64,000 nt of DNA from a virus. The stretch covers positions 1 through 64,000 of the IMG/VR virus record IMGVR_UViG_3300032116_000125. One strand, 5' to 3'. The notes under the pieces were generated by a model. It saw only the letters and a list, made by a program, of their open reading frames with translations, did no database searches and was not told the DNA's origin. Numbering within the stretch: the stretch's first letter is position 1; each line of letters begins with the position of its first letter. The translations under genes were made by a program, and so were the position numbers. Below are positions 29,629-54,505 of this stretch, piece by piece.

Positions 29629-31114
29629 TTTTGATTACACGGCAAGAGACTACAGTAGCGTTCGTGAAGCGCTGTCGGCCCGCGCCTCCCGCTCTATTCC
29701 TGAATGGGTGGGGGACGACCCTTCGGACTTTATGTCCACATTGATTGACCTGTGGGCGTACACCGCTGACACACTTCATTACTACATTGACCGCGCATCC
29801 ACAGAAGCCTTTTTGGGCACCGCGACCCAGCGCGAGAGCGTCTTGGCTCTGGCTAACCTTTATGGCTACACGCCTAATTACCAGCGTTCTGCAACTGCCA
29901 CGTTAAGCCTGACCAATACGGGGGCATCTTCCGTTACTGTCCCGGCCAACACCAAGTTCATATCTACAACGGGGCAGTACTTTTACAATGAGGAAGCGCT
30001 ATCTATCTCCGGTAATAGCACTGGGTCATTGAGTGTGCGCCAAGGCACACTAGTCAGTAGCGAAAGCCTGACTTCCTCCACCGACTCCACCCGTACCAGT
30101 AGCGACGGTACCTTTGGGCAACGGTTCAACATTTATCGTACGAGCGTTGACCCCACCACGGTACGAGTGTTTGTCGCTGAGGGCGCTGGGGGCGCAACAA
30201 AAGAATGGTCGCGGGTAAACACCCTTGTAAGTTACGGACCAGACGACTCAGTATTCTCAGTTTATATAGATTCTAACCAAATAGCGCAAGTAGTATTTGG
30301 TAATGGATTGAATGGGCGCATTCCACCGATTAACGCGCAAATAACCGCGACGTATGGGTATTCAGATGGTTCACTGGGGAATGTGGGTAGCAATACGATC
30401 ACCCGTCTTGCTACGTCGTCACTTCCCACAATAACAACCATTACTAACGTCTCGCCCGCGGCCGGTGGCTTGGACTTTGAAAGTATTGACAGTATCAAGC
30501 GGGCCATTCCGGGTGCACTGCGTACTAGGAGTGGCGCCACCACCCTGTCGGACTTCAGGGACTTGGCTCTTGCTACGCAGGGTGTATCTAAGGCCACTGT
30601 CTCCTACACGGGGTCCTCGTCCAGCGGAGCGTCTATCACCGCCACGGTAGTCCCAGATCAGACAGCCTACCTAACTGATGGAGCGGCGTCAGTCAGCATT
30701 AGCACCGACTTGCGTGACCGAGTTGCTCGGGAACTTCTAGATAACGCCCTTCTTGGGGTTACCCTGATTAGCGTTCCCTCTTCCGTAACCTTCACTAAGA
30801 TTTATGTGTACTTTGATCTGTACGTAAAGTCAAATTACGTACAGTCTGTCGTTGTTGCGGATGTTAAAAACGCGGTAGAAAACCTTTTTGCGTTTACTTC
30901 TGTCTCTTTTGGTCAAGTTGTAAATATCGGAGAGGTTTATCGTACCGCCATGGCTGTTGCTGGCGTGGATTACTTGATAGTCAAGGGCTTCACAACCACC
31001 AGCGGGGGTACGACCACCATTGATAACAGTGGCAAGATTACGGTTGGGGCAACGTCTTTGCCAAAACTTGGTGTTGTAACCATCACCGCCTCAGGGGGAG
31101 TCTCAGCAGTCTAA
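29621..31114 (+). CDS. Baseplate J-like protein
   Basis: 497 aa. The N-terminus has FDYTARDYSSVREAL, then DLWAYTADTLHYYIDRASTEAFLGTATQRESVLALANLYGY and TVPANTKF, the baseplate J (gp6/gpJ) signature. The central region has GAASVSISTDLRDRVARELLDNA-type dimerisation motif; the C-terminus is DVKNAVENLFAFTSVSFGQVVNIGEVYRTAMAVAGVDYL. Two copies per wedge form the iris around the hub. Confidence 0.92.
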   Translation: MANFDYTARDYSSVREALSARASRSIPEWVGDDPSDFMSTLIDLWAYTADTLHYYIDRASTEAFLGTATQRESVLALANLYGYTPNYQRSATATLSLTNTGASSVTVPANTKFISTTGQYFYNEEALSISGNSTGSLSVRQGTLVSSESLTSSTDSTRTSSDGTFGQRFNIYRTSVDPTTVRVFVAEGAGGATKEWSRVNTLVSYGPDDSVFSVYIDSNQIAQVVFGNGLNGRIPPINAQITATYGYSDGSLGNVGSNTITRLATSSLPTITTITNVSPAAGGLDFESIDSIKRAIPGALRTRSGATTLSDFRDLALATQGVSKATVSYTGSSSSGASITATVVPDQTAYLTDGAASVSISTDLRDRVARELLDNALLGVTLISVPSSVTFTKIYVYFDLYVKSNYVQSVVVADVKNAVENLFAFTSVSFGQVVNIGEVYRTAMAVAGVDYLIVKGFTTTSGGTTTIDNSGKITVGATSLPKLGVVTITASGGVSAV

Positions 31115-33411
31115 TGGCAAAGAAAGCATTTGTCTTTAAAAGTAATCTAGGTACCACCGCCAGTACCTCTGGCTCATTCCTACAGCCGGGGACCGCCAAT
31201 ATCGGCACGGACGATTCATCAGCATTTAAGGCTGATGGGTACACCCTTCCCCCGGTAACCATCGGTTCAGCATCATTCCTGTCGGCTACCCCGACTAATT
31301 ACGGAGAAGTGTTAGTGGAGTGGGGCATCACCAGTGCCTTGTCAAGTGTCGTCAGTGCCACACCTAGCGCCACAGAATTGATTCTTGTTTATTCCGCGTA
31401 TGGCCCACCCCAAACCTATTTGGATGGGCAGGTGCTTGTCACGATTACAAACGCAAACACAGTTTCTTCATTTACCCATGATGGGCTCGCTGGTGGTACA
31501 TGGGCGTACTACTCGCTGTTTGTTAAGTACCAAGCAACCGGCACGCGCTCATGGTACGAGCGCTTAGCCTCAACAGAGACGTTGGTAGTTAAAAATTACA
31601 ATTCATTAGCGTCCCTGTATCGCCGTGTTCCACTGCATTACCGCCTGTTGGATGACCAACTTGGTCTTACCAATATCAACAGTGAGCACATCTCGGTCCT
31701 CCCTACCGACCTCGTTGTGTCAGGACCACTGCGGCGCATGCTGGATGTGTTTGGTTGGGATATTGACGTTTTAAAGACAACTATTGACTACGTAATTAGG
31801 CAGAAAGACCCGTACGTTGCGAACAGTGAAATGTTGGAGCAACTGGCTAAGGAAGTCGGTCTGCCGATTGAAACTGTGGACCTTGGCCCAGCCCGCCTTC
31901 GGGATTTGATTTCCAACTTTAGGTATTTGACAGAAAACGAGGGGCTGATCACAGGTATTGAGGAATATATAACGGCTTTGGCAGGTAGTGACACAGAAAT
32001 AAAATTTAGTAACCCGGATTTGTTTACTGCTACGCAACACGCTATCTCCAGCCTTGCTACAACGACTTCCCCAACTCAGGTACCCACGACGGATCAGTGG
32101 CTCATGGAAGTGCAAGACCTTGGTGGCGGGGCATCGTCTCAAGCAGTTGCCGCCTCTTCTACCTATTACGGTAAAGCACTATGCGAGAATAACACGGCTG
32201 TACGCATTACGTCTGGCGCCGCATCGGTCAACACCGGCGTGTACGTAGGATGTTTGAAAACAAAGATAACGAATGTTAGCCAAGCCAGCCGTTTGTACAT
32301 GGAGTACGGGGCTGTTTACGGAGCAACACCCAGTAACGGCGCAAGTGTTATTGGCGCGGCTGTACTGAGTAGCGTGACCGCGGCTTCGGCAGTGTCATAC
32401 AGCCTCACCACGGGGGCAAGCACATCATTGGAGGGGTTCGTGTCCTCAGTAACGGACGGGCAAGCAAATGCGTGGTCAGTGCCTGTTGACTTTGGGGTTG
32501 TGGGTAACGGCTCAACAACGACCTCAGATATGTACTTACATATTTGGGTTGCGTCTAGATACAACAACAACCCTTTGCATTTTGTTCCAATTGTGTTGAA
32601 GACACAAAATAGGTACCCCTACTACATTGACGTTTATTCCCAGCGTCTTAACCTTGTGCGCGACCCGCAGTTTGTTAACGGGATAAGCACTTTGTCAGAG
32701 AGCAGTAACACCACTTCTTACTGGAGAGTCGCGGGGTCCTCTATTACAGGGACATCCGTAGCCGACAAGGTTGCAACGATAAGCACCAGCGCGTCGTCTA
32801 CGCTAACTCTGAGTACAGACGTAACGCACACCACTAACGGTAAGAGGTATACGCCACTAAAGCGGGGCGTGGAGTACTACTTTTCTATAGATGATATAAA
32901 CGACAATATTTCGGCTGTTCAAGTGCGTCTTGACAACGCAGAAATAACGCTCGTTACGCAGTCCACCGTGTACAGGAGTGAAAACCTGTCTAGCGGAGGT
33001 AAACGAAAGTACTGGCAGATTGTAATCCCGAGCACGGCTAACACCTATCCGGAATCGGCCAACGTGTACCACATTGCCTTGACCGCCAATGTCTCTGCAT
33101 CCAACCTGTCCCTGAAGGTGTCACGCCCTCTTCTTGAGCCGTATGCCCCGGGGGCGTACTTTGATGGCGACACGGAGCAGGGTGGTTGGCTCGGCGTAGG
33201 TAGTGGTGGCGGTGGCGCCAACGCCGACCACCGCTGGGGTGACAGTTCACAGCACTCTAATTTCTCTTATTACACCTCTGACTACCGCCGAACGGTTGAG
33301 ACTGTGAAGAGGCTCATGGAATATATCGTTCCGGTAACAGAGCAAACTACTGCCCTAACCAATTTGAGGTTTGACCGCATACCCGGGTATTCGGGTACGC
33401 TGTCTCTATGA
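31114..33411 (+). CDS. Tail protein gpI-like fused to fibre-type C-terminus
   Basis: 765 aa, TAATG-coupled to gpJ. About 165-290 resembles phage tail protein I: SLYRRVPLHYRLLDDQ, PLRRMLDVFGWDIDVLKTTIDYVI, SEMLEQLAKEVGLPIE, LRDLISNFRYLTENEGLITGIEEYI. Flanking parts are beta-rich: a fibronectin-like N-terminal domain and a long carbohydrate-module-like C-terminal half (QRLNLVRDPQFVNGISTL, SRPLLEPYAPGAYFDGD). This would be the outer-wedge protein that carries the fibres. Confidence 0.8.
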   Translation: MAKKAFVFKSNLGTTASTSGSFLQPGTANIGTDDSSAFKADGYTLPPVTIGSASFLSATPTNYGEVLVEWGITSALSSVVSATPSATELILVYSAYGPPQTYLDGQVLVTITNANTVSSFTHDGLAGGTWAYYSLFVKYQATGTRSWYERLASTETLVVKNYNSLASLYRRVPLHYRLLDDQLGLTNINSEHISVLPTDLVVSGPLRRMLDVFGWDIDVLKTTIDYVIRQKDPYVANSEMLEQLAKEVGLPIETVDLGPARLRDLISNFRYLTENEGLITGIEEYITALAGSDTEIKFSNPDLFTATQHAISSLATTTSPTQVPTTDQWLMEVQDLGGGASSQAVAASSTYYGKALCENNTAVRITSGAASVNTGVYVGCLKTKITNVSQASRLYMEYGAVYGATPSNGASVIGAAVLSSVTAASAVSYSLTTGASTSLEGFVSSVTDGQANAWSVPVDFGVVGNGSTTTSDMYLHIWVASRYNNNPLHFVPIVLKTQNRYPYYIDVYSQRLNLVRDPQFVNGISTLSESSNTTSYWRVAGSSITGTSVADKVATISTSASSTLTLSTDVTHTTNGKRYTPLKRGVEYYFSIDDINDNISAVQVRLDNAEITLVTQSTVYRSENLSSGGKRKYWQIVIPSTANTYPESANVYHIALTANVSASNLSLKVSRPLLEPYAPGAYFDGDTEQGGWLGVGSGGGGANADHRWGDSSQHSNFSYYTSDYRRTVETVKRLMEYIVPVTEQTTALTNLRFDRIPGYSGTLSL

Positions 33412-33659
33412 TCATTATTGGTGGCCTAGCGGTTTACAAAGCCATACATGTTTTAACCACGCTCATTCCAAAGGAGTTGAGTGCGTGGGTTACCGTCCTC
33501 GTCGGCGTCGTTCTTGGCATTGGTGCGTCGTGGTGGCTATCCGAAAACAATGTATTGCTTTCAGGATTGGCGATGGCTACAATCGCCGGTGCCACCCAGT
33601 CGGTGTTGCGACTGGTCACCCTTACTGGTGATCTGTCCCTGCGCCGGTCGCTCAAATAG
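33408..33659 (+). CDS. Putative holin / small membrane protein
   Basis: 83 aa, ATGA overlap with the gpI-like gene. Two to three hydrophobic stretches (IIIGGLAVYKAIHVL; AWVTVLVGVVLGIGASWWL; VLLSGLAMATIAGATQSVL) and a short basic tail (RRSLK). Size, spans and charge fit a class I/II holin, although the endolysin lies 29 kb upstream in this window. Holin is the best guess; a host-membrane protein is also possible. Confidence 0.6.
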   Translation: MIIIGGLAVYKAIHVLTTLIPKELSAWVTVLVGVVLGIGASWWLSENNVLLSGLAMATIAGATQSVLRLVTLTGDLSLRRSLK

Positions 33660-34471: not shown

Positions 34472-34606
34472 TCACTTCTTCTTCTTGGGAGCGGCCTTCT
34501 TGGCCGCGGCCTTCTTGGCCGCGGCCTTCTTCTTAGCCGGTCCCTTGCCGTAGCCGGGGTCCTTCTTATTGCTGATTCCACATCCGCATTCCTTGCACAT
34601 TGTCAT
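34472..34606 (-). CDS. 44-aa protein: Cys cluster plus Lys/Ala tail
   Basis: ATG at 34606 behind a strong AAAGGGGG site, ending at TGA 34472-34474. The N-terminus has a CKECGCG cluster (a possible metal site), followed by a histone-H1-like tail of repeated KKAAA units ending PKKKK. It is the last gene of the minus-strand basic island. The repeat and charge imply nucleic-acid binding or condensation (inference). Confidence 0.65.
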   Translation of the reverse strand: MTMCKECGCGISNKKDPGYGKGPAKKKAAAKKAAAKKAAPKKKK

Positions 34607-34848
34607 TCCCCCTTTCGGTGCTTCGCAGTTTTCTTGGCGATGCTTTTTGGTTGCTTGACAAATTGCTTGCCCTCGGCGTTGCCCTTGGCCTTGGCACGAT
34701 TCGTAGACGCCTTTTCAGAAGGGGTCAACTCATCCCACGCCTTGTCCGGTAGGTAACGCTTCTTGCCCTTGGACGGCTTTCCATCAGAGGTGCGCCACTT
34801 CTGGTCCGTCCATTCATCAAGGGACTTCTGCGACTCTTTCTTAGCCAT
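34603..34848 (-). CDS. Small basic protein (DUF5872-like)
   Basis: 81 aa. The layout KKESQKSLDEWTDQKWRTSDGKPS ... RYLPDKAWDELTPSEKASTNRAKAKG ... GKQFVKQPKSIAKKT is, from memory, that of DUF5872, found in many aquatic myoviruses. Function unknown; 'SxKSLxxWtxQkWrTsdGKPS' is its fixed motif. It overlaps its neighbours by a few bases on both sides. Confidence 0.8.
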   Translation of the reverse strand: MAKKESQKSLDEWTDQKWRTSDGKPSKGKKRYLPDKAWDELTPSEKASTNRAKAKGNAEGKQFVKQPKSIAKKTAKHRKGE

Positions 34849-35042
34849 CAGTCCTTGTAACCCCCGCCCTTCTTCTTGTACTCAGACGCAAGAAGTTGGG
34901 CTTTACGGGCAGACCACTCGCCGGGATCGCCACCCTTTGAACCGGCCTTGATCTTCTTAAACAGTTCCTCACGCATACCCGGCTTGGTGTAATTACCGGC
35001 TTCGTTGACCTTAGATTCGGTCTTCTTTTTCTTAGCGGCCAT
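34848..35042 (-). CDS. Small basic conserved phage protein
   Basis: 64 aa. Starts with AAKKKKTESKV, then NYTKPGMREELFKKIKAGSKGGDPGEWSARKAQLLASEYKKKGGGY. I recall the NYTKPxxRxxLFxxIKAGSKGGxPGxWSARKAQ motif from cyanophage and other aquatic phage proteins that travel with DUF5872. No known function. Its stop overlaps the next start downstream on the minus strand. Confidence 0.8.
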   Translation of the reverse strand: MAAKKKKTESKVNEAGNYTKPGMREELFKKIKAGSKGGDPGEWSARKAQLLASEYKKKGGGYKD

Positions 35043-35044
35043 GG

Positions 35045-35308
35045 TTACTTTTTTCCTCTATTCCGTGCACGATTCTTAGATGGTTCCTCTGCCACGATTC
35101 CACCATCTTTGGTATGGGACATATCCTTACCACCCTTGCCCATAACCCCACGCTTACGGCGCTCTTCAGCAAGTTCACGACGCTTCTCCTTCTCTTCGGG
35201 CTTAGCGTTGTACTCCTTGTTGTAGGCGTCCTTCTTCTTACGGGCCTCCGGGTTATCCCGGTAATACTGCGCGGTTTCTTTGGGACTACTGGTCTTGCGA
35301 GGAGCCAT
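35045..35308 (-). CDS. Small basic protein with GKDMSHTKDGG / RARNRGKK motif
   Basis: 87 aa from the ATG at 35308, which overlaps the upstream stop as TAATG; a GTG two codons earlier is less likely. Very rich in Lys, Arg and Glu, with NPEARKKKDAYNKEYNAKPEEKEKRRELAEERRKR followed by GKGGKDMSHTKDGG and SKNRARNRGKK. The latter motif recurs in hypothetical proteins of large aquatic phages (from memory). A nucleic-acid role is likely from charge. Confidence 0.75.
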   Translation of the reverse strand: MAPRKTSSPKETAQYYRDNPEARKKKDAYNKEYNAKPEEKEKRRELAEERRKRGVMGKGGKDMSHTKDGGIVAEEPSKNRARNRGKK

Positions 35309-35601
35309 TACCACTTCACCTTGTCAGCCCAGTAAGCGGCTGACATCTTGCCTTTGGCAATGTTCTTGGCATGGCGGGACTTAAAGGAAGCACGCTTGTC
35401 CTTCATGCGCTCGGACTCCCCCGCCTTGGGCTTACCAGCGGTCTCAGCACCCTGCTCGCCAAAGCGAATCGTCTTGACCTGATCGCCCACCTTGGCGACA
35501 ACAATGTGCGACTTGGTCGGGTGGTCCGGCGTTGCCTTCGGCTTGTTGTAACCCGAGACACCGGCTCGCGCCAATCGGGGGTCTTTCTTACTCTCAGCCA
35601 T
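35308..35601 (-). CDS. Small basic protein (DUF6321-like)
   Basis: 97 aa. The string DPRLARAGVSGYNKPKATPDHPTKSHIVVAKVGDQVKTIRFGEQGAETAG, then RASFKSRHAKNIAKGKMSAAYWADKVKW, resembles the DUF6321 family known mainly from marine phages (assignment from memory). No function is established. Together with the next genes it forms a translationally coupled set. Confidence 0.82.
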   Translation of the reverse strand: MAESKKDPRLARAGVSGYNKPKATPDHPTKSHIVVAKVGDQVKTIRFGEQGAETAGKPKAGESERMKDKRASFKSRHAKNIAKGKMSAAYWADKVKW

Positions 35602-35608
35602 GATTACC

Positions 35609-36052
35609 TCACTTCGTTGATGCGCGGAGTTGCCACGACCACTTCATGTGCATGTCAATCCGCTCTGAAATAAAATTAAGAATACCCTGCTGATTTTCTT
35701 TCTCAGCATCCTTAAATGTAACATACAACTGCTTGATAAGTGCCTCATTGGCCGTCAGCAGTGCCCCGGCCATAGCCTTGGGGGTGGGGGAGACATCTTT
35801 AAAAGCGATGGTACGCATCTCAATAAACTTTTGTAGATTGAAGGGGGCGTACTCATCCAATTTGCGGAGGTTTTCAGCAATCGGGTCAATAGAGCCGTAG
35901 GCGTCCTCGTAGATGTCTGCAAAGAGGCCGTGGTACTGGCTGAAGTCCTGACCCTCTACGTTCCAGTGAAACCCATGGGCCATGAAGTAGAAGGTGACAA
36001 CGTCTGAGAGAAGGGCTTTGAGGGACTTCGTAAGTCCGGTGCTGGATGCCAT
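35609..36052 (-). CDS. Dps-like ferritin protein
   Basis: 147 aa from the ATG at 36052, behind AAGGAGACCAC. The four-helix ferritin-like pattern is visible: LLSDVVTFYFMAHGFHWNVEGQDFSQYHGLFADIYEDAYGSIDPIAENLRKLDE (about 12-66, containing the Dps ferroxidase set HxxHWN...H...D...E), then ANEALIKQLYVTFKDAEKE and ILNFISERIDMHMKWSWQL. Dps dodecamers store iron and shield DNA. Phage-borne Dps-like proteins are known; the role may be to protect phage DNA or handle iron in the infected cell. Confidence 0.85.
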   Translation of the reverse strand: MASSTGLTKSLKALLSDVVTFYFMAHGFHWNVEGQDFSQYHGLFADIYEDAYGSIDPIAENLRKLDEYAPFNLQKFIEMRTIAFKDVSPTPKAMAGALLTANEALIKQLYVTFKDAEKENQQGILNFISERIDMHMKWSWQLRASTK

Positions 36053-36065
36053 GTGGTCTCCTTGA

Positions 36066-36118
36066 AAACAGGGCTGGGGCGCTTCAGTAACTCTACACCA
36101 AAGCGCCCCAGCCTGTTT
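36066..36118. promoter_or_regulatory. Large hairpin upstream of the Dps-like gene
   Basis: AACAGGGCTGGGGCGCTT (about 36067-36084) pairs with AAGCGCCCCAGCCTGTT (36101-36117), with one bulged G, around a 16-base loop. On the minus strand it lies directly ahead of the ribosome site of the Dps-like gene and is followed by GTTTTC, so it could be an attenuator or an mRNA-stabilising 5' structure. On the plus strand it could end read-through antisense transcription. The mechanism is undetermined. Confidence 0.65.
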
Positions 36119-36126
36119 AACCACCA

Positions 36127-36138
36127 CCGGTAAACCGG
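36127..36138. repeat. Short palindrome in divergent intergenic region
   Basis: CCGGT-AA-ACCGG, in the approximately 200-base region between the minus-strand basic island and the plus-strand replication operon. The same region contains the repeated element CAAGGAGACCAC (minus strand 36057-36068 and plus strand 36238-36249), which includes the ribosome sites of both divergent first genes. This suggests a shared control region. Confidence 0.35.
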
Positions 36139-36221
36139 GCACCGAGGAGAACCACCAACTCGGTCTCCGAAGATTAGCCTCAACAAACCGTGTATGCAAC
36201 ACTTGGCGACGGGTTTGTGTG

Positions 36222-36227: not shown

Positions 36228-36252
36228 CTCCGGCACACCAAGGAGACCACCG

Positions 36253-37470
36253 TTGAGCAACAAGATTCAGGGGCCTTTTGCTCCGATGCCCATATGGGCA
36301 TTTGACCTGATCAGCAGGCGTGGGACGCCAACCCATACCCACATCTTGATGACCATCTTGCGGTTGACCCCACTCACGGGGCCCAAGCCCCTGACCGTCT
36401 CGGACATCGCCCAGTCCTCGGGCATGTCTCCGGAGACCGTCAAGCGCTCCCTTCGGTGGCTGGAATCAGCCGGGATCACCACCTCCACACGGCTCTCTGG
36501 TAACCGTGGGAAGCACATCGTGGTGCGGTTCCGTGCCCCCAAGAGGGGGGTCACCAGTGACCCCACCCTACCCCAAGGGGGGGTCACCCATGACCCATCA
36601 GGGGGGTCACCCATGACCCCACCCCGAGCCCCTGAGCAGGGCGAATTCCATAGTAGAGATAGTATTAGAGACGTAGTACAAAGGGAAATGTCTAAAGACA
36701 TTTCCCTTTGTGGGCTTCGCCCGTTTTACGAAGGAGATGAATCCATGCCTATTTTTGGCGCCGATCCCGATGACACTAGAGAATGGGACGAGACCCCCGC
36801 TTTGGAGAAGTTGTCGCACGACACGACCGATGTGCTCCAACACTTCAACTTCGTGGCGCGTCAGGTTGGGGCCACCCCCGTGGCTGTAAAGGACCGCCCC
36901 GCCTTCAGGATTCAGATCAAGCGCCTCCTGAAAAACGGAGTGACCCCCGCCGACCTCCAGCGCATGGTTGACAAGTTCTTCACTTTCTCCCGGAACGTAG
37001 AGTCCAGCACTCCGTGGAAGTACTTCTGCACCAACAGCGTCCAAGCGTCCCTCTTGGCAAGCACCACGGAGATCGTCGCCGTCAGCCCGATTCTCGGATG
37101 GGTTGCCGATGAGTTTGAGTACACCGATGTGCTTCCATGGGATGAGGAGATCAACTCCCGGATTCGGAAACTCATTTGGCGCCGAGCCATGGACTTGGCG
37201 TACACCTACCCCGAACTTCTCGCTGACATCGTGGTCATCCCCGCCTACGACGCCTCGGCGCAACCCGATGGCACAGAGCACCTTTCCATGCTCCTGTTGT
37301 GCGCGAGCACCTTGCTGAGTGAGCCCGGAGACGACTCAGCGGTGGAGTACTTGACCGCCCACGGCGTGAATGCCCCCACGGACCTTGCGGAGCGTGGTAC
37401 TCTCCGCAAACCCACCGCCTCGCTACGCCAAGCCGTAGCGCACTACCAGCAACTCAGGAGAACCCAGTGA
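36253..37470 (+). CDS. Replication initiator-like winged-helix protein
   Basis: 405 aa from the TTG at 36253, 7 bases after AAGGAGA; a longer frame upstream lacks a ribosome site. The N-terminal about 25-100 is a winged helix (ILMTILRLTPLTGPKPLTVSDIAQSSGMSPETVKRSLRWLESAGIT, then a basic wing). A Gly/Thr/Pro-rich linker follows. The C-terminal part is helical and resembles DnaD-type helicase-loading domains only weakly. Directly followed by a DnaC-like ATPase, helicase and primase, it is probably the origin-binding or primosome protein. Confidence 0.72.
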   Translation: MSNKIQGPFAPMPIWAFDLISRRGTPTHTHILMTILRLTPLTGPKPLTVSDIAQSSGMSPETVKRSLRWLESAGITTSTRLSGNRGKHIVVRFRAPKRGVTSDPTLPQGGVTHDPSGGSPMTPPRAPEQGEFHSRDSIRDVVQREMSKDISLCGLRPFYEGDESMPIFGADPDDTREWDETPALEKLSHDTTDVLQHFNFVARQVGATPVAVKDRPAFRIQIKRLLKNGVTPADLQRMVDKFFTFSRNVESSTPWKYFCTNSVQASLLASTTEIVAVSPILGWVADEFEYTDVLPWDEEINSRIRKLIWRRAMDLAYTYPELLADIVVIPAYDASAQPDGTEHLSMLLLCASTLLSEPGDDSAVEYLTAHGVNAPTDLAERGTLRKPTASLRQAVAHYQQLRRTQ

Positions 37471-38063
37471 CCGTAGGAGCACCGCCCACCGAATGGAAGT
37501 CAGCGCGTTGGTGGCAGAACCGCTCCGTAGAAGAACGCTTGACATGGGCGCACCTGCCACCGCGATGGGCGAGCGCCGAATACGACACCGATCAAATTTC
37601 CAACGCGACAGCGAACAGCATTGACTCTTTCCTCACCGGCAAGAGCAACGGTCTGTTTCTCCATGGGCCGAGTGGTTCAGGCAAGACTCCCATCGCTGTC
37701 GGCCTTCTCAACAAGATCATCTGCGCCGACAAAGTGTCAGGGCGGTTCATCACTGCCGAGCGTTACGTTGAGATGCTCAAAGACCAGTTTGACAACGACA
37801 ACGAGTTGCCCGAGATGTACTCCATGCCTCACATCGTCAAGTACCTCAAAGGGGTGTTTGACATCGTGGTGCTGGACGCCGTGGGTCAGGAGCGTGCTAC
37901 CGAGTTCTCGTACCACGAGGTCGGAAGCCTGTTGCGCCGTCGCAACGAAGATTGCCGTATCACCATTGTCACCACACACCTTTCTCCCACTGAGTTCATT
38001 CGCCGGTATGGAGACCGCGTGGCGTCTGTTCTTGAAGACATGATCATCACCCGGGTGGCGTGA
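37467..38063 (+). CDS. DnaC-like helicase loader ATPase
   Basis: 198 aa, GTG start overlapping the initiator stop. Walker A GPSGSGKTPIA (about 67-77), Walker B DIVVLDAVGQE (about 132-142, Ala in place of the usual Glu or Asp next to the catalytic Asp), sensor-1-like ITIVTTHLSP. The N-terminus (RWWQNRSVEERLTWAHLPPRW) resembles IstB/DnaC-type loaders. It would load the helicase at 38500-39753 at forks or origins. Confidence 0.8.
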   Translation: MTVGAPPTEWKSARWWQNRSVEERLTWAHLPPRWASAEYDTDQISNATANSIDSFLTGKSNGLFLHGPSGSGKTPIAVGLLNKIICADKVSGRFITAERYVEMLKDQFDNDNELPEMYSMPHIVKYLKGVFDIVVLDAVGQERATEFSYHEVGSLLRRRNEDCRITIVTTHLSPTEFIRRYGDRVASVLEDMIITRVA

Positions 38064-50083: not shown

Positions 50084-51220
50084 ATGCCCCGTAAGAAGCC
50101 CGGTGAAGCGCCTAAGAAGCGTGGTCGTCCTCGCAAAGATCAGGCTCCTACTCGTGGGCGCCCTCGCAAAGCGGATGACACCACGATTGTTGGTACCCCG
50201 ATAACAACTTCTTCGGCCCCGGCCACTGGGTCTCGTGCGTATCAGGTTGCCATGAGCAAGATCGGCCGTGCTGAGAGTTTTTGGGGCGTTGGTACGGGGC
50301 GCCCTGACCGCACTATGTGGGCAGACGCTACTGGACCCGCTGAGACGGACCAAGAGTTCCGTGAGCGCCTTGCGGGTGGGCGTTCAAACCCTGAGCCCAC
50401 GACTGTGACCACAGAGAGGGCGCTTGGCGAAGTGGGCAAGCGTGGTGAAGAGCGTATTGACCCTGTCCGAGATCGCCCCCTGCCTTCGCTGGTCGGCCCC
50501 GGTGTCCCCTCACTGCGAGGCACTCACCGAGCGGTGCCCCTCGGTGATCGTGATGTAAGCATCTCAACCGATACCTCAGTTGATGACAGTGGCAGGGTTG
50601 CTCCTCCTACCCTTGTTACTTTTCCCGGCCCCGTCAGCGTTTCAGGCGTTATCCCTGCTCACATGGGTGGTAGCCAATTCCGTCCACTGGCTAGCCAAGC
50701 AACTGGCCCACGCCAAACACAGGGGCCCCGACTCTTCCGTAGTAGCCGAGTACAGCCTGATCAGGCCCGTGAGGAAGACGCTGATGTGTACGAGCGCTTG
50801 GTGCACCTCCACGAATCCATTAGGGGCATGATGGAGGACTCCGGTGCCCCGGCGTACAGGGCACCCTCTGGCCCATCGGGGCGTGCGGTTACCCCAGACA
50901 TGAAACAGCGTGCAGAATCTCACGCCTCCGATATCCGTGCCCGTACGGGGGACGACACGATGAAGACTTGGATTGACGAAGACATCAAGAAGAAGTGGGA
51001 AGAAGACAACGCTAAGCCTGAGGTTACAACTAGCGCCTCACCAACGGTGACCCCGGTTGGCGGTGATCGTATTACTTCCGAAAACGAAAAAACTAACATG
51101 AAGACCGCTCCCGATGCAGAGGCACAGGCCCGTGGAGCAGAGCGCCGAGCCGCCCGGCAAGCCGCCGAAGCCGACATGGCGGCGATGGACAGAGAAAACA
51201 GGAACAAAAAGAAGAAGTAA
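50084..51220 (+). CDS. Disordered AT-hook-like basic protein
   Basis: 378 aa. Two AT-hook-like motifs at the N-terminus (KKRGRPRKD and TRGRPRK, about residues 11-29). The rest is mostly disordered, Pro/Arg/Gly/Thr-rich, with short helices (DVYERLVHLHESIRGMMED; DDTMKTWIDEDIKKKWEE) and a Lys-rich C-terminus. Likely DNA-binding through AT-hooks (established for the motif); the remainder is not recognised. GTG-free start ATG 50084, two bases after SpoVS-like gene. Confidence 0.7.
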   Translation: MPRKKPGEAPKKRGRPRKDQAPTRGRPRKADDTTIVGTPITTSSAPATGSRAYQVAMSKIGRAESFWGVGTGRPDRTMWADATGPAETDQEFRERLAGGRSNPEPTTVTTERALGEVGKRGEERIDPVRDRPLPSLVGPGVPSLRGTHRAVPLGDRDVSISTDTSVDDSGRVAPPTLVTFPGPVSVSGVIPAHMGGSQFRPLASQATGPRQTQGPRLFRSSRVQPDQAREEDADVYERLVHLHESIRGMMEDSGAPAYRAPSGPSGRAVTPDMKQRAESHASDIRARTGDDTMKTWIDEDIKKKWEEDNAKPEVTTSASPTVTPVGGDRITSENEKTNMKTAPDAEAQARGAERRAARQAAEADMAAMDRENRNKKKK

Positions 51221-51222
51221 AG

Positions 51223-51381
51223 ATGTACGGACCGCTAGACCCCCTGTCATGGGACGAGATGCTTGACGATCTCGGTTACTCTGATGACGACAACGATGAC
51301 GATTACTACGGCAGTAAAAAGGGTAGTAAGGGTAAGAAGAAAACCAAATTTCGAGATTACGAATGGGACGAGTACGACTGA
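51223..51381 (+). CDS. Small acidic/basic protein (MYGPLD...)
   Basis: 52 aa, 2 bases after the AT-hook gene. Begins MYGPLDPLSWDEMLDDLGYSDDDN, an acidic stretch, then a basic Lys/Gly segment (GSKKGSKGKKKTKFRDYEW). Start similar to that of 7990-8433 (MYGTEN...), perhaps by chance. TGATG overlap with the next gene. Unknown function. Confidence 0.55.
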   Translation: MYGPLDPLSWDEMLDDLGYSDDDNDDDYYGSKKGSKGKKKTKFRDYEWDEYD

Positions 51382-51521
51382 TGGCGAAATACGCATACCG
51401 ACCTGACCCCCGAAATGAGTTCTTGAAGCGTGGCGTCCGTAAGCCCCGCCCCATCGCACCGCTTGGTGGGGGCTCTCAGGGAGGAATGCTCTCCGGTACT
51501 GGTACCGGCATGGATCGGTAA
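51381..51521 (+). CDS. Small Arg/Gly-rich protein
   Basis: 46 aa from ATG 51381 (TGATG). AKYAYRPDPRNEFLKRGVRKPRPIAPLGGGSQGG; ends at a TAATG overlap. Too short to show domains; composition suggests a flexible nucleic-acid or virion-associated peptide. The chain of TGATG/TAATG overlaps at both ends supports its reality. Confidence 0.55.
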   Translation: MAKYAYRPDPRNEFLKRGVRKPRPIAPLGGGSQGGMLSGTGTGMDR

Positions 51522-52012
51522 TGACTAACGCATTCACCACCGGCCCTAGTCCTGACGGTAACCGTAACTCAGGAAGCACTCTTCCTTTACTTGGTCCTAC
51601 CCCGGTATTCCGCAACGCCAAGGATCAGCGGCTCTCCGCCTTCGGCTCCACACCGGACACCCAGTACCCCGATGGTTACCTTGGGACAATGTCCAGTAAC
51701 CGCCGTCAGGATAAGTTGACGAACGCTGTCGCCCGGGCTAACCAAAGGTCTTATTCTAGAGGTGTTCATAAGGGCGAGCGGATTAATGCAGGCGATTACA
51801 TTTGGCCTAAAGAATTCAACCTCTTAACCGGACTGGTATTGGAATCCAAGGGTCAAAAGTTCGCCCCAACAGGCGCTGAACCTGCCATGTTGACCAACGA
51901 TGGAAAGGTTGGACCCCGTGGTATTCCTCGGGGATTGGAGCGCCCTAACCCTGAAGTTATAGATATGCAACGCCGAAGCATGCTAAAATCCTTAGCACCA
52001 GCATGGCGTTAA
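51521..52012 (+). CDS. Hypothetical basic protein of the small-gene array
   Basis: 163 aa, TAATG start. Disordered N-terminus (TTGPSPDGNRNSGSTLPLLGPTP), then MSSNRRQDKLTNAVARANQRSYSRGVHKGERINAGDYIWPKEF and a Pro/Gly-rich C-terminus. No family recognised. Confidence 0.6.
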   Translation: MTNAFTTGPSPDGNRNSGSTLPLLGPTPVFRNAKDQRLSAFGSTPDTQYPDGYLGTMSSNRRQDKLTNAVARANQRSYSRGVHKGERINAGDYIWPKEFNLLTGLVLESKGQKFAPTGAEPAMLTNDGKVGPRGIPRGLERPNPEVIDMQRRSMLKSLAPAWR

Positions 52013-52026
52013 TATAAGGAGAAATC

Positions 52027-52323
52027 ATGGCAAAGATTATGCCCGCTATCCATTCTCGTGGATCTCATGGCGGTTCCGGTCAGTACGAGACCGGTGCTAA
52101 CCCGGCCCCGACCCGCTCCCGAGCGACTCGTGACGCCGACCAGTACCGTCGCATGCGTGAGGTCCCGAACGCCGAGAGGCACCGTGATGAGTTGAACGAG
52201 GCCGGAGTTACCGGCGATAAGACCATGAAGCGGATGCAGAAGTGCGGTTCGTGTGGCACGATCAACGATGCCAGCAGTGAGTCGTGCAAGGCTTGTGCGA
52301 GCGACCCCCGGGCCGGTTACTGA
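52027..52323 (+). CDS. Zinc-ribbon-tailed small protein
   Basis: 98 aa behind AAGGAG. Disordered N-terminus with RSRATRDADQYRRMREVPNAERHRDELNEAGVTGDK, then a zinc ribbon: MQKCGSCGTINDASSESCKACAS (CxxCG and CxxC). The ribbon resembles the generic CGSCG...CKAC nucleic-acid-binding type. Unknown role. Confidence 0.62.
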   Translation: MAKIMPAIHSRGSHGGSGQYETGANPAPTRSRATRDADQYRRMREVPNAERHRDELNEAGVTGDKTMKRMQKCGSCGTINDASSESCKACASDPRAGY

Positions 52324-52332
52324 GAACTAATC

Positions 52333-52500
52333 ATGCCGTGGTCTCCGAAAGACGCACCGAAGAAGACCAAGAAGGCTGACACTCCCAAAGAGAAAGAGGA
52401 GTGGGCCAAGGTAGCCAACTCAGTCTTGAAGAAGACGGGGAGCGACGCCACCGCGGTGCGTATCGCTAACTCTACGATTGCCAAGAGAGGTAAGAAGTAA
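52333..52500 (+). CDS. Small conserved-type protein (MPW...KKADT-type)
   Basis: 55 aa from ATG 52333. MPWSPKDAPKKTKKADTPKEKEEWAKVANSVLKKTGSDATAVRIANSTIAKR: the MPW-x-x-x-DAxxxTKKA-x-TPkxxxxWaxVANxvLxxTG-x-xxAxRiAN pattern recurs, from memory, in very small phage and bacterial proteins. No established function known to me; distantly reminiscent of ChaB. TAATG overlap. Confidence 0.72.
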   Translation: MPWSPKDAPKKTKKADTPKEKEEWAKVANSVLKKTGSDATAVRIANSTIAKRGKK

Positions 52501-52859
52501 TGGAAGTAATTAAAGACCCCAAACCCCTCGCTGGTGGCGGTGGCGCCGGTCAGCCCCCGAAGCGCCCCCGCACGGTTAATGACGCAGACCTCCCCAATGA
52601 CCCCATGGACTATGTCACCCGCATCGGGCGAAACGACCACTTTGCGGCTGGAATGGACCACGGCCGTGGTGGTGGCCCCGGCCCTTATTACGACTTTGAC
52701 TACGGCGCCCCTCAGAAAGGCACCAAGGCTTTGCAGGCCCAGTTCGGTCAGGCTTTTGACCCTAAGCGTGCTTTCAAGCCGATGCCACAAGTTCCAGATT
52801 ACTCGGGTCACGACTATAAGGAAGGGCCTCGTAAGCCCCCTACTAAGAAGAAGGTCTGA
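52500..52859 (+). CDS. Glycine/proline-rich hypothetical protein
   Basis: 119 aa, TAATG start. GGGGAGQPPKRPRTVNDADLPNDPMDYVTRIGRNDHFAAGMDHGRGGGPGPYYDFDYG, then KALQAQFGQAFDPKRAFKPM and a basic end. Disordered. Could be a flexible virion or host-takeover protein; unknown. Confidence 0.55.
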   Translation: MEVIKDPKPLAGGGGAGQPPKRPRTVNDADLPNDPMDYVTRIGRNDHFAAGMDHGRGGGPGPYYDFDYGAPQKGTKALQAQFGQAFDPKRAFKPMPQVPDYSGHDYKEGPRKPPTKKKV

Positions 52860-52860
52860 C

Positions 52861-53166
52861 ATGGACAGTCAAGCAAAACACCCCGGACGCAAAACAGGAC
52901 GAGACGACCACACCGGTCGCATCGCTGGATACCAGTCATACTCCACTGGCGACGCTGGCTCAGCGTACGACAGCACCTTTGATGTTATGAATCCTCCGAA
53001 TGCCCCTGAACGTGGTCCCGCTGGCCCCCTCGGCCGTGTGGTCAACAAGGGCTTGAACGCTCTCGGCGTGCCCGAATCGGAAGGCCGTGTTGGTAAGGTT
53101 TCTCGTGCAGACAAGAAAACTTACAAGCAGAATCTAAAGACGTACAAGAAAAATCAAGGGAAGTAA
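52861..53166 (+). CDS. Small array protein with duplicated N-terminal motif (copy 1)
   Basis: 101 aa from ATG 52861, one base after the previous stop. N-terminus DSQAKHPGRKTGRDDHTGR shares DSQA-x-HPxRKTxRxxHTGR with the next gene, evidence of a local duplication. Followed by Gly/Ala/Pro-rich segment (NAPERGPAGPLGRVVNKGLNALGVPESEGRVGK) and a Lys-rich C-terminus (RADKKTYKQNLKTYKKN). No known family. Confidence 0.65.
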   Translation: MDSQAKHPGRKTGRDDHTGRIAGYQSYSTGDAGSAYDSTFDVMNPPNAPERGPAGPLGRVVNKGLNALGVPESEGRVGKVSRADKKTYKQNLKTYKKNQGK

Positions 53167-53171
53167 TCACC

Positions 53172-53447
53172 ATGGACAGCCAAGCAAGACATCCCGAACG
53201 TAAGACAGATCGTGCATCCCACACCGGGCGGGTAACTAAACTCACTGGCAAGGTGGTTGGCCATACCCCGGGCCACGTTTGGATGAGCGCTGAGTCTACT
53301 GGCGGTGGGCAGACTGACAGCCACATGATTCCCCACTCGGAAGGTGGGCGTTTCCCAGTTGGTCAGACTGTGCGTGCTACTAACACGAAAAATGTTAATG
53401 GCACCGATAACTGGGCCCTTCAGTTGGGCGAAGGTTACGACGAGTAA
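53172..53447 (+). CDS. Small array protein with duplicated N-terminal motif (copy 2)
   Basis: 91 aa. DSQARHPERKTDRASHTGR repeats the N-terminal motif of copy 1; the C-terminal part differs: TGKVVGHTPGHVWMSAES, then HSEGGRFPVGQTVRATNTKNVNGTDNWALQLG, a compact beta-type domain. The shared tag could be a targeting or packaging signal (speculative). Confidence 0.65.
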   Translation: MDSQARHPERKTDRASHTGRVTKLTGKVVGHTPGHVWMSAESTGGGQTDSHMIPHSEGGRFPVGQTVRATNTKNVNGTDNWALQLGEGYDE

Positions 53448-53450
53448 AAC

Positions 53451-53744
53451 GTGGGCAAACCGTGGCAGACTCACGAGGAGTACCTCACCGATCAGGCCCT
53501 AGAGGCCGCTCTGAGTCTTACCCCGGATGAGATTCGGGAACTGCGCCCCCAGCACCCGCTGGAGTTGCTCCCTCAAAACCGTGGCTTTGTTAAACAGACC
53601 ATCACCGTAATGGATGTACTCACGGTCAACCGCTACGCCGCCACTAACCGCTCGTGGTTGTCTGGTATGCCCGTTCGCCGTACCCAACTGGCAGACGGCG
53701 ACTGGACCGGCACGGGCCGCTACTCAATGGACGCACTCGGATGA
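53451..53744 (+). CDS. Hypothetical protein of small-gene array
   Basis: 97 aa, GTG start. GKPWQTHEEYLTDQALEAALSLTPDEIRELRPQHPLELLPQNRGFVKQ, a helical half, then VTVNRYAATNRSWLSGMPVRRTQLADGDWTGTG. It overlaps the next gene (ATGAGC at 53741). No family recognised. Confidence 0.6.
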   Translation: MGKPWQTHEEYLTDQALEAALSLTPDEIRELRPQHPLELLPQNRGFVKQTITVMDVLTVNRYAATNRSWLSGMPVRRTQLADGDWTGTGRYSMDALG

Positions 53745-54505
53745 GCAAAGAGTTTGAACGCCAACTAAAACAGGCCATGAAGAGTATGGGCAGTGGGTCT
53801 ATTCCGACCACGGACTACTCCATGGGGGAGACCTTCTCAACGTCTGAAATAAAGTACCCAAAGGCTCGTGAGTATCCCGGATTCACCCCGCCAGATTCTG
53901 GCATCACTCGTGACTTCTCAGGGCGTAAGTACGAGCCTTTTGCGATGACTGCTTCTAAGTCATGGTCAGACATTCGCCTCCAACGCACCCGTATGGGTGG
54001 CGATGCGGAAGATGCGGAAGATGGGGGAGATGGGGAAGACGAGAACCAAAATCCTGCCCCTGCCCCCTCCTCGCCCCTCCCGACAAGTGGGAGTGGGAGC
54101 CAAACCACTGGTGGTGGGCGTGGGCGCAGGAAAAGCACCCGACCCACCTATGTAGCCACTGGTCGTGGGCGCAAAACACCCGCCCAGTCAGGACCACCTA
54201 CTTATGTCGCCACCGGTCGTGGGAAACTGAAGCCGGTAAAAACCCCCAAAGAGGGGTCTCTCTCTCGTGATCCTGACTCCGGTGAAGTCATGTGGGACCC
54301 GAATAAGGACTTCACTGCTGGAGACGCCCGTGTCCTTATTTCTGAGGGTGCCCGTGAGGGCGTCCGGGCCGTTGGGCGAGGACTCCGCAGTGGGGCCTCA
54401 AAGGTTGCGAGAAGCGTAAAAGGACGAGTTGGCAAAGGGGCCGGGCAGTCATCCCAAATGGACGACGTCACCGGATTCACCGACCCGTTTGACCCTTTCG
54501 CATGA
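53741..54505 (+). CDS. Low-complexity basic protein with PTYVATGRG repeats
   Basis: 254 aa from ATG 53741 (ATGA overlap); the frame is open upstream, inside the previous gene, without a good start. Disordered middle: EDAEDGGDGEDEN acidic tract, APAPSSPLP linker, GGGRGRRKSTR and two PTYVATGRG units (about residues 127-160). C-terminal basic helices (VLISEGAREGVRAVGRGLRSGASKVARSVKGRVGKG). Looks like a DNA- or RNA-interacting intrinsically disordered protein; unknown role. Confidence 0.62.
   Translation: MSKEFERQLKQAMKSMGSGSIPTTDYSMGETFSTSEIKYPKAREYPGFTPPDSGITRDFSGRKYEPFAMTASKSWSDIRLQRTRMGGDAEDAEDGGDGEDENQNPAPAPSSPLPTSGSGSQTTGGGRGRRKSTRPTYVATGRGRKTPAQSGPPTYVATGRGKLKPVKTPKEGSLSRDPDSGEVMWDPNKDFTAGDARVLISEGAREGVRAVGRGLRSGASKVARSVKGRVGKGAGQSSQMDDVTGFTDPFDPFA

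Follow-up and report, generated by a model that had tools for sequence, protein, structure and literature searches.

A Dps-like Mini-ferritin Encoded with Small Basic Proteins in a Phage Operon, and a Possible Link of Such Proteins to the Virion

Why a phage should encode a Dps-like mini-ferritin in one operon with five very small, strongly basic proteins is the question raised by this locus. The window analyzed here, bases 1–64000 of a 74,256-base IMG/VR virus record (IMGVR_UViG_3300032116_000125), includes genes for a large terminase, a portal protein, a tail sheath, and a WhiB-like regulator, and therefore belongs to a contractile-tailed phage. The phage is of a freshwater type and infects aquatic bacteria, and the WhiB gene suggests that the host is probably an actinobacterium. 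The six-gene operon runs on the minus strand from 36052 to 34472 in the order Dps, P2, P3, P4, P5, and P6, between a tail module (plus strand, to 34463) and a replication module (plus strand, from about 36250). Three flanking genes on the opposite strand, named from sequence and position, are a baseplate-region gene (31114–33411), a holin-like gene (33408–33659), and a helicase-loader-like gene (37467–38063), which are kept in 74, 75, and 70 of 78 relatives, respectively. The stop-to-start gaps between successive operon genes, from Dps to P6, are 7, −1, 2, −1, and −4 nt, which makes translational coupling plausible. All six ORFs are taken to be genes because homologues exist, with PHROG matches of 1e-26 to 2e-42 for Dps, P2, P3, P4, and P5, and with P6 kept as a neighbor of Dps in 48 of 80 related contigs. 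An island of Dps with five basic mini-proteins, as first described from the letters of the DNA, is therefore upheld by gene order, charge, and PHROG homologues.

The first gene of the operon (P0001; 35609–36052, minus strand, 147 residues, Shine-Dalgarno sequence AAGGAG) encodes the Dps-like mini-ferritin. The protein matches the Pfam Ferritin family, a four-helix ferritin-like domain (PF00210; 3.9e-14, 53 bits against a cutoff of 24.5), phrog_3636 (1.3e-26), and 21 Dps-type sequences in the PDB, with 8ff9 being the closest solved relative by sequence (4e-17). It shares with these mini-ferritins the fold family and the ferroxidase residues, H29, H41, D56, and E60; this H-H-D-E set is kept in 78 of 78 relatives, and the position of E. 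coli D67 is occupied by A, S, or E in the family. Unlike known Dps mini-ferritins, the window Dps is tail-less and acidic and lies in a phage operon of basic mini-proteins. A lysine-rich tail confers DNA binding on E. coli Dps and is not a feature of all Dps proteins. Neither the window Dps nor any relative compared has such a tail at the N or the C terminus: three to six residues precede helix A, and the C terminus reads LRASTK. The net charge is −3, and the median for Dps proteins in the relatives' cassettes is −4. The sequence-only reading had held that Dps also binds DNA, a claim that is not borne out; because the protein is acidic and without a lysine tail, DNA binding by Dps alone would not be expected. 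Because the ferroxidase residues are invariably kept and the lysine tail is absent, this Dps is likely to act in iron and peroxide chemistry. A search for its bacterial source returned only distant Dps proteins, 27–33% identical, from MAGs or genomes of other phyla.

The five proteins encoded downstream of Dps contain 44–97 residues, of which 24–34% are Lys or Arg, and have pI values of 9.9–10.2 and net charges of +9 to +13, whereas the other window proteins have a median Lys plus Arg content of 11% and a median pI of 5.6. They hold five of the top six net charges per residue among the 90 predicted proteins of the window and stand apart in charge from its other small proteins (Mann-Whitney P = 0.0008). 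From this charge, the mini-proteins may be expected to bind nucleic acid. Condensation of the host chromosome, also proposed in the sequence-only reading, found no support in the present comparisons. The sixth of the six most charged proteins lies outside the island (52333–52500, plus strand, beginning MPWSPKDAPKKTKKADTPKEKEEWAKVANSVLKKTG; 55 residues, net charge +9) and matches neither Pfam nor PHROG at the thresholds applied. It falls within a plus-strand run of small, basic, or low-complexity proteins (50084–54505), the first of which (378 residues) carries two N-terminal AT-hook-like KRGRPRK motifs (AT_hook, 14.9 bits, below the cutoff); another (52027–52323) ends in a zinc-ribbon-like motif.

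All five basic genes of the operon are on the minus strand, and their products yield nothing over the cutoff in Pfam and NCBIfam. P2 (P0002; 35308–35601, 97 residues) has the C-terminal motif RASFKSRHAKNIAKGKMSAAYWADKVKW and matches phrog_7595 (2.1e-42) and phrog_220, minor head protein and DNA pilot (6e-6); its predicted structure is poor (pLDDT 50), and the model is unreliable. P3 (P0003; 35045–35308, 87 residues), with the pattern QYYRDNPEARKKK...DMSHTKDGG...KNRARNRGKK, matches phrog_6437 (4.1e-27). By tblastn, P3 has relatives in Syn5, P60, S-CBP2, and elemo phages, the cyanopodovirus relative adjoining the terminase small subunit. The notion that P3 is a degenerate HNH nuclease found no support upon comparison with Syn5 gp51. 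P4 (P0004; 34848–35042, 64 residues), with the pattern NEAGNYTKPGMR...GGDPGEWSARKAQLLA..YKKKGGGYKD, matches phrog_17747 (9.2e-35); homology to a module within the structural protein of S-E7 was considered for P4 and rejected on comparison. P5 (P0005; 34603–34848, 81 residues) matches phrog_14910 (6.2e-37), and its AlphaFold model is a compact, alpha-rich fold (pLDDT 86). Alignments used for structure prediction were built solely from window and relative-locus sequences. A search of the PDB with the P5 fold gave no significant match and no DNA-binding fold, and its weak structural neighbors among viral proteins, namely DUF6321 and DUF5872 proteins and an S-SCSM1 virion protein, are leads only (E of 0.4–8). 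A profile of P5 gave no significant match to the RB11-B protein, and the profiles of P2, P5, and DUF6321 matched none of the solved structures. P6 (P0006; 34472–34606, 44 residues) combines a Cys cluster, MCKECGCG, with an AKKKAAAKK tail and has no Pfam match and no significant PHROG match. The histone-H1-like basic tail of AK/KKAAA repeats noted earlier is present in P6 (AKKKAAAKKAAAKKAAPKKKK) and in P6 only; it does not describe P5, for which a compact fold is predicted.

The small proteins had also been likened to DUF5872 and DUF6321. As names for the window proteins these do not hold, since none of the window proteins matches DUF5872 or DUF6321 (PF19846, cutoff 28.5 bits) at E ≤ 1. What stands is a more distant relationship: 5 of 16 members of the P5 family weakly reach DUF5872 (PF19197; best 6.7e-4, with P5 itself at E > 1, and with the 81 residues of P5 falling short of the 116-position model), and DUF6321 occupies the P2 slot in sister phages.

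That slot was defined by reading the best 80 Dps relatives in IMG/VR (62–100% identity) with 5 kb to either side; counts refer to the 78 contigs with a complete Dps gene. In essentially all 78, Dps and basic mini-proteins are encoded consecutively on one strand. The place and strand of this cassette are constant in 70–75 of the 78 contigs, and it always faces away from the flanking modules. Membership and gene order are shuffled among the relatives, Dps heading the cassette in one subgroup and closing it in another. Extra basic families in these cassettes are DUF6321 (PF19846, 90 bits), a GRPYPNL(I/V)DNM family, and DUF6496 (PF20106), and the median net charge of the cassette's basic families is +9 to +14. 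The GRPYPNL family is the sole one in the cassette to show a sub-threshold match to LPD22 (17.5 bits, cutoff 28.6). In two contigs (L102:5242–5751 and L114:5430–5939), a methyltransferase-like gene (DVGPGAGAYGKLI) lies between Dps and the mini-proteins. Small membrane proteins of two types are encoded in Dps-last cassettes (L136:4774–4998, L149:4834–5001, L151:4019–4237, L155:1408–1632, and L157:4296–4520), and one of the two types adjoins Dps.

Within this shuffling, two strict rules are observed. P2 is present in 36 of the 78 cassettes and DUF6321 in 41 (40 gene calls and one read from the frames of L124), with both in none and neither in one (L136). After dereplication to 39 contigs, P2 is found in 18, DUF6321 in 19, and both in 0 (Fisher 3e-9, an indicative value, as the contigs are related), and no DUF6321 was seen in 78 Dps-less P2 loci. 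A profile comparison of P2 with DUF6321 gave a probability of 6%, at which homology is not detectable, and the claim made here is therefore limited to equivalence of slot. Similarly, P4 and P5 co-occur (6 of 8 dereplicated, P = 9e-6) and are never found with the GRPYPNL family (0 of 8 against 22, P = 4e-4), nor do P4 and P5 occur together with GRPYPNL in the Dps-less set of 78 loci. P4 and P5 form a single fused protein in several phages, and P5 is fused to P2 in L057 and L079. Because of these either-or rules and repeated fusions, a joint function of the mini-proteins is indicated.

Dps, on the other hand, is dispensable to the cassette. A search of 50,697 phage records placed relatives of P2, P3, P4, and P5 in phages of Synechococcus, Prochlorococcus, the Roseobacter group, SAR116, SAR11, Methylophilales, Flavobacterium, and one Vibrio, with matches that are essentially all aquatic; DUF6321 was found in 504 of these records, nearly all aquatic. 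These searches confirm that the mini-protein families are common to phages of distant aquatic hosts, cyanophages included, as the sequence-only reading had stated, but the same does not extend to Dps, which is joined to the cassette in one clade. Although Dps and the mini-proteins are grouped across the 78 contigs, Dps is present at only 2 of the best 80 P2 loci, and in L219 and L257 a leader like that of the window precedes a cassette that opens with P3 or DUF6321 and has no Dps. Dps is thus regarded as an optional rider of one clade. The Dps genes of other phages (Salmonella phage 7-11 and Bacteroides phage BS162P1) have annotated neighbors of other kinds, so that Dps with mini-proteins is not a general phage feature.

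In phages without Dps, the mini-protein genes keep company with late genes. TerL, portal, major head, scaffold, tail fibre, and endolysin neighbors are encoded on the strand of P2 at 45 or more of the 78 Dps-less P2 loci, and a late-gene context is also seen in HMO-2011, CRP-9, MEP401, CRP-1, S-CRES1, and S-EIV1. Mini-protein genes adjoin terminase genes in T4-like cyanophages, MEP401, Syn5, CRP-1, and CRP-9. In T4-like cyanophages, DUF6321 (PF19846, cluster T4-GC119) is mostly the C-terminal domain of a 430–530-residue protein whose gene adjoins the terminase genes or lies between them, whereas in the sister phages, where it fills the slot of P2, it is free-standing and 89–99 residues long.

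Three proteins of other phages connect these families to the virion. A P2-like domain occupies residues 535–604 of gp012 of Aphanizomenon phage CL131, between the portal and InPase-MuF domains (hhalign probability 96%, E 1.4e-9), and LC-MS/MS of purified virions detected this portal protein, ORF012 (PMC6293099). S-CREM2 gp137 (108049–109521) has a C-terminal DUF6321 domain (109291–109512, 44.7 bits) and is listed in the virion proteome, with only 4 unique peptides (PMC10665884, Table 3). The product of S-SCSM1 gene 29 (S-SCSM1_29) also ends in DUF6321; its designation as a virion protein comes from the record rather than from a proteomics table, and virion mass spectrometry was carried out by the authors of that record (PMC9602691). 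Both S-CREM2 gp137 and S-SCSM1_29 are encoded next to terminase genes. The virion data concern relatives or functional equivalents of the cassette proteins, not P2–P6 themselves; together with the late context of the relatives, they support the link between the mini-protein families and the virion or packaging module. As P2 and DUF6321 replace each other, P2 is likely to be located where DUF6321 proteins are, in the virion.

Known phage systems offer two points of comparison. T4 packages with its DNA small, basic, exchangeable sets of internal head proteins, IPI–IPIII and Alt. P2–P6 resemble these in being small, basic, and exchangeable, a likeness that does not come from sequence, and their own packaging is something we infer. 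Portal-MuF proteins and polyvalent phage proteins, for their part, are packaged and presumably injected (PMC5512222). The P2-like module embedded in a portal-InPase-MuF protein is a feature shared with this group; in contrast to its multidomain, enzyme-bearing, LPD-domain proteins, P2–P6 are single-domain, non-enzymatic, and encoded apart.

The reading that we prefer, and to which we assign about even chances of being right, is that the mini-proteins are packaged or packaging-associated proteins of the internal-head type and that Dps is a clade-specific add-on for iron and peroxide chemistry. On this view, P2–P6 would be independently encoded forms of small basic modules that are incorporated into head and packaging proteins in other aquatic phages. 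Produced for the assembly stage, they would bind phage DNA or the interior of the capsid or portal through their strong positive charge and would be packaged together with the genome or around it, in the manner of internal head proteins. P2 and DUF6321 would do one job and be mutually replaceable, and P4 with P5 would act as one unit whose alternative is another small basic family, GRPYPNL. Within the infected cell, the ferroxidase cage of Dps would sequester iron and peroxide, thereby shielding replicating or unpackaged phage DNA, a protection that would need no DNA binding of its own. Packaging, DNA binding, late timing, and the role of Dps are all put forward here as inferred from the comparisons above.

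The arrangement of the window itself runs counter to a packaging function, as its operon lies outside the late module and on the opposite strand. Upstream of Dps, a conserved leader (36072–36180, minus strand) comprises a promoter-like pair, a small hairpin with a near-invariant 14-base loop, GTTGGTGGTTCTCC (36146–36159, minus strand), whose stem sequence varies among relatives, and a terminator-like hairpin of 18 bp followed by a T run (36072–36113, minus strand; loop TAGAGT, TANANT across relatives) directly upstream of the Dps ribosome-binding site. The leader is found in about half of the relatives, including L082–L096, L102, most of L109–L115, L122, most of L126–L131, L218, L219, and L257, and precedes the cassette with or without Dps. 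The candidate σ70-type promoter is TTGCAT-17-TAATCT in the window and TTGACA-18-TAGTAT in L113. Folding of the whole leader in the window gives z = −4.8. In the first hairpin, pairs 9–30 and 10–29 are changed on both sides among nine distinct sequences, and 67% of cells pair, compared with 52% in shuffles (0 of 500). Sliding the partner lowers this pairing; the covariation score at −1 is alike, with some sequences being one out of register. No Rfam family matches the leader, which is a candidate cis-regulatory element. When the loop was sought by an exact 16-base scan, the hits beyond the cassette had, for the most part, a context that suggests chance occurrence. The 14-base loop on a perfect CCCCCGCGA/TCGCGGGGG stem was also observed just past a stop codon in L214 (minus strand, 2639 of the reversed sequence) and L226 (3878), which have no recognized cassette; there, on the opposite strand, it has the look of an intrinsic terminator followed by a T run. 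The divergent replication gene on the plus strand apparently starts at a TTG near 36249, with an AAGGAGACCACC ribosome-binding context as in Dps, and the GTG at 36190 given by the ORF finder is the less likely start.

Given the opposite strand, the position between tail and replication modules, and the host-like promoter candidate, early expression of the operon is possible. On such grounds (its own strand, the adjoining replication module, a candidate σ70-type promoter, and a long structured leader), the mini-proteins could instead serve host takeover, as early basic proteins that attach to nucleic acids or ribosomes of the host and reorganize its nucleoid, with Dps handling released iron and peroxide and none of the proteins being packaged. 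We regard this explanation as unlikely, as the same families are mostly encoded in the late module, among terminase, portal, capsid, and lysis genes, in other phages, and related domains occur in virion proteins. The adjacency to terminase genes and the P2-like domain within a portal protein would also suit accessory factors that aid the terminase or portal, for example, by condensing DNA or recruiting it to the prohead, and that exit before the virion is completed. Retention of S-CREM2 gp137 and CL131 gp012 in the purified virion argues against such an exit and leaves this explanation distinctly doubtful.

Similarly improbable, in our estimation, is a joint reading of all elements as an undescribed nucleoprotein kit, in which mini-proteins in either-or slots would coat or condense DNA across aquatic phages. 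In one clade, they would also anchor the acidic Dps cage, which has no tail, to DNA in trans, and the resulting phage chromatin would be buffered for iron and proof against oxidation; the hairpin leader would be a new RNA switch of the operon. For the last of these parts, GGUUCUCCU within the leader loop is complementary to the ribosome-binding site AGGAGA(A)C(C), and masking of the Dps ribosome-binding site by the loop is offered as an idea. Least probable is an accretion hot spot, in which unrelated small genes gathered with no joint function and Dps aids the host against oxidative stress: members come and go, order varies, and most relatives, as well as two cassettes that share the leader, are without Dps, but the strict either-or rules at two slots, repeated fusions among members, constant strand and place, and recurrence in phages of distant hosts make it very unlikely.

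Returning to packaged or packaging-associated proteins of the internal-head type with Dps as an add-on, the parts of this system are known as isolated hypothetical families, and the cassette, its exchange rules, and the link to virion proteins appear to be new. In the literature searched, coverage of which was incomplete, DUF6321 and DUF6496 are named by no paper and DUF5872 by one, and no description was found of a phage Dps with such a cassette, in agreement with the earlier suggestion of an undescribed system. Of the uncharacterized small proteins in aquatic phages, the mini-protein families rank with the more common, and they have hitherto been treated as unrelated hypotheticals. Exchange at either-or slots, fusion of members, and virion data from the literature unite them in one system, for which the capsid is the place to look. 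If the preferred reading is true, aquatic phages package a set of basic proteins much as T4 does its internal proteins, and the viral Dps, itself devoid of a DNA-binding tail, gains a context.
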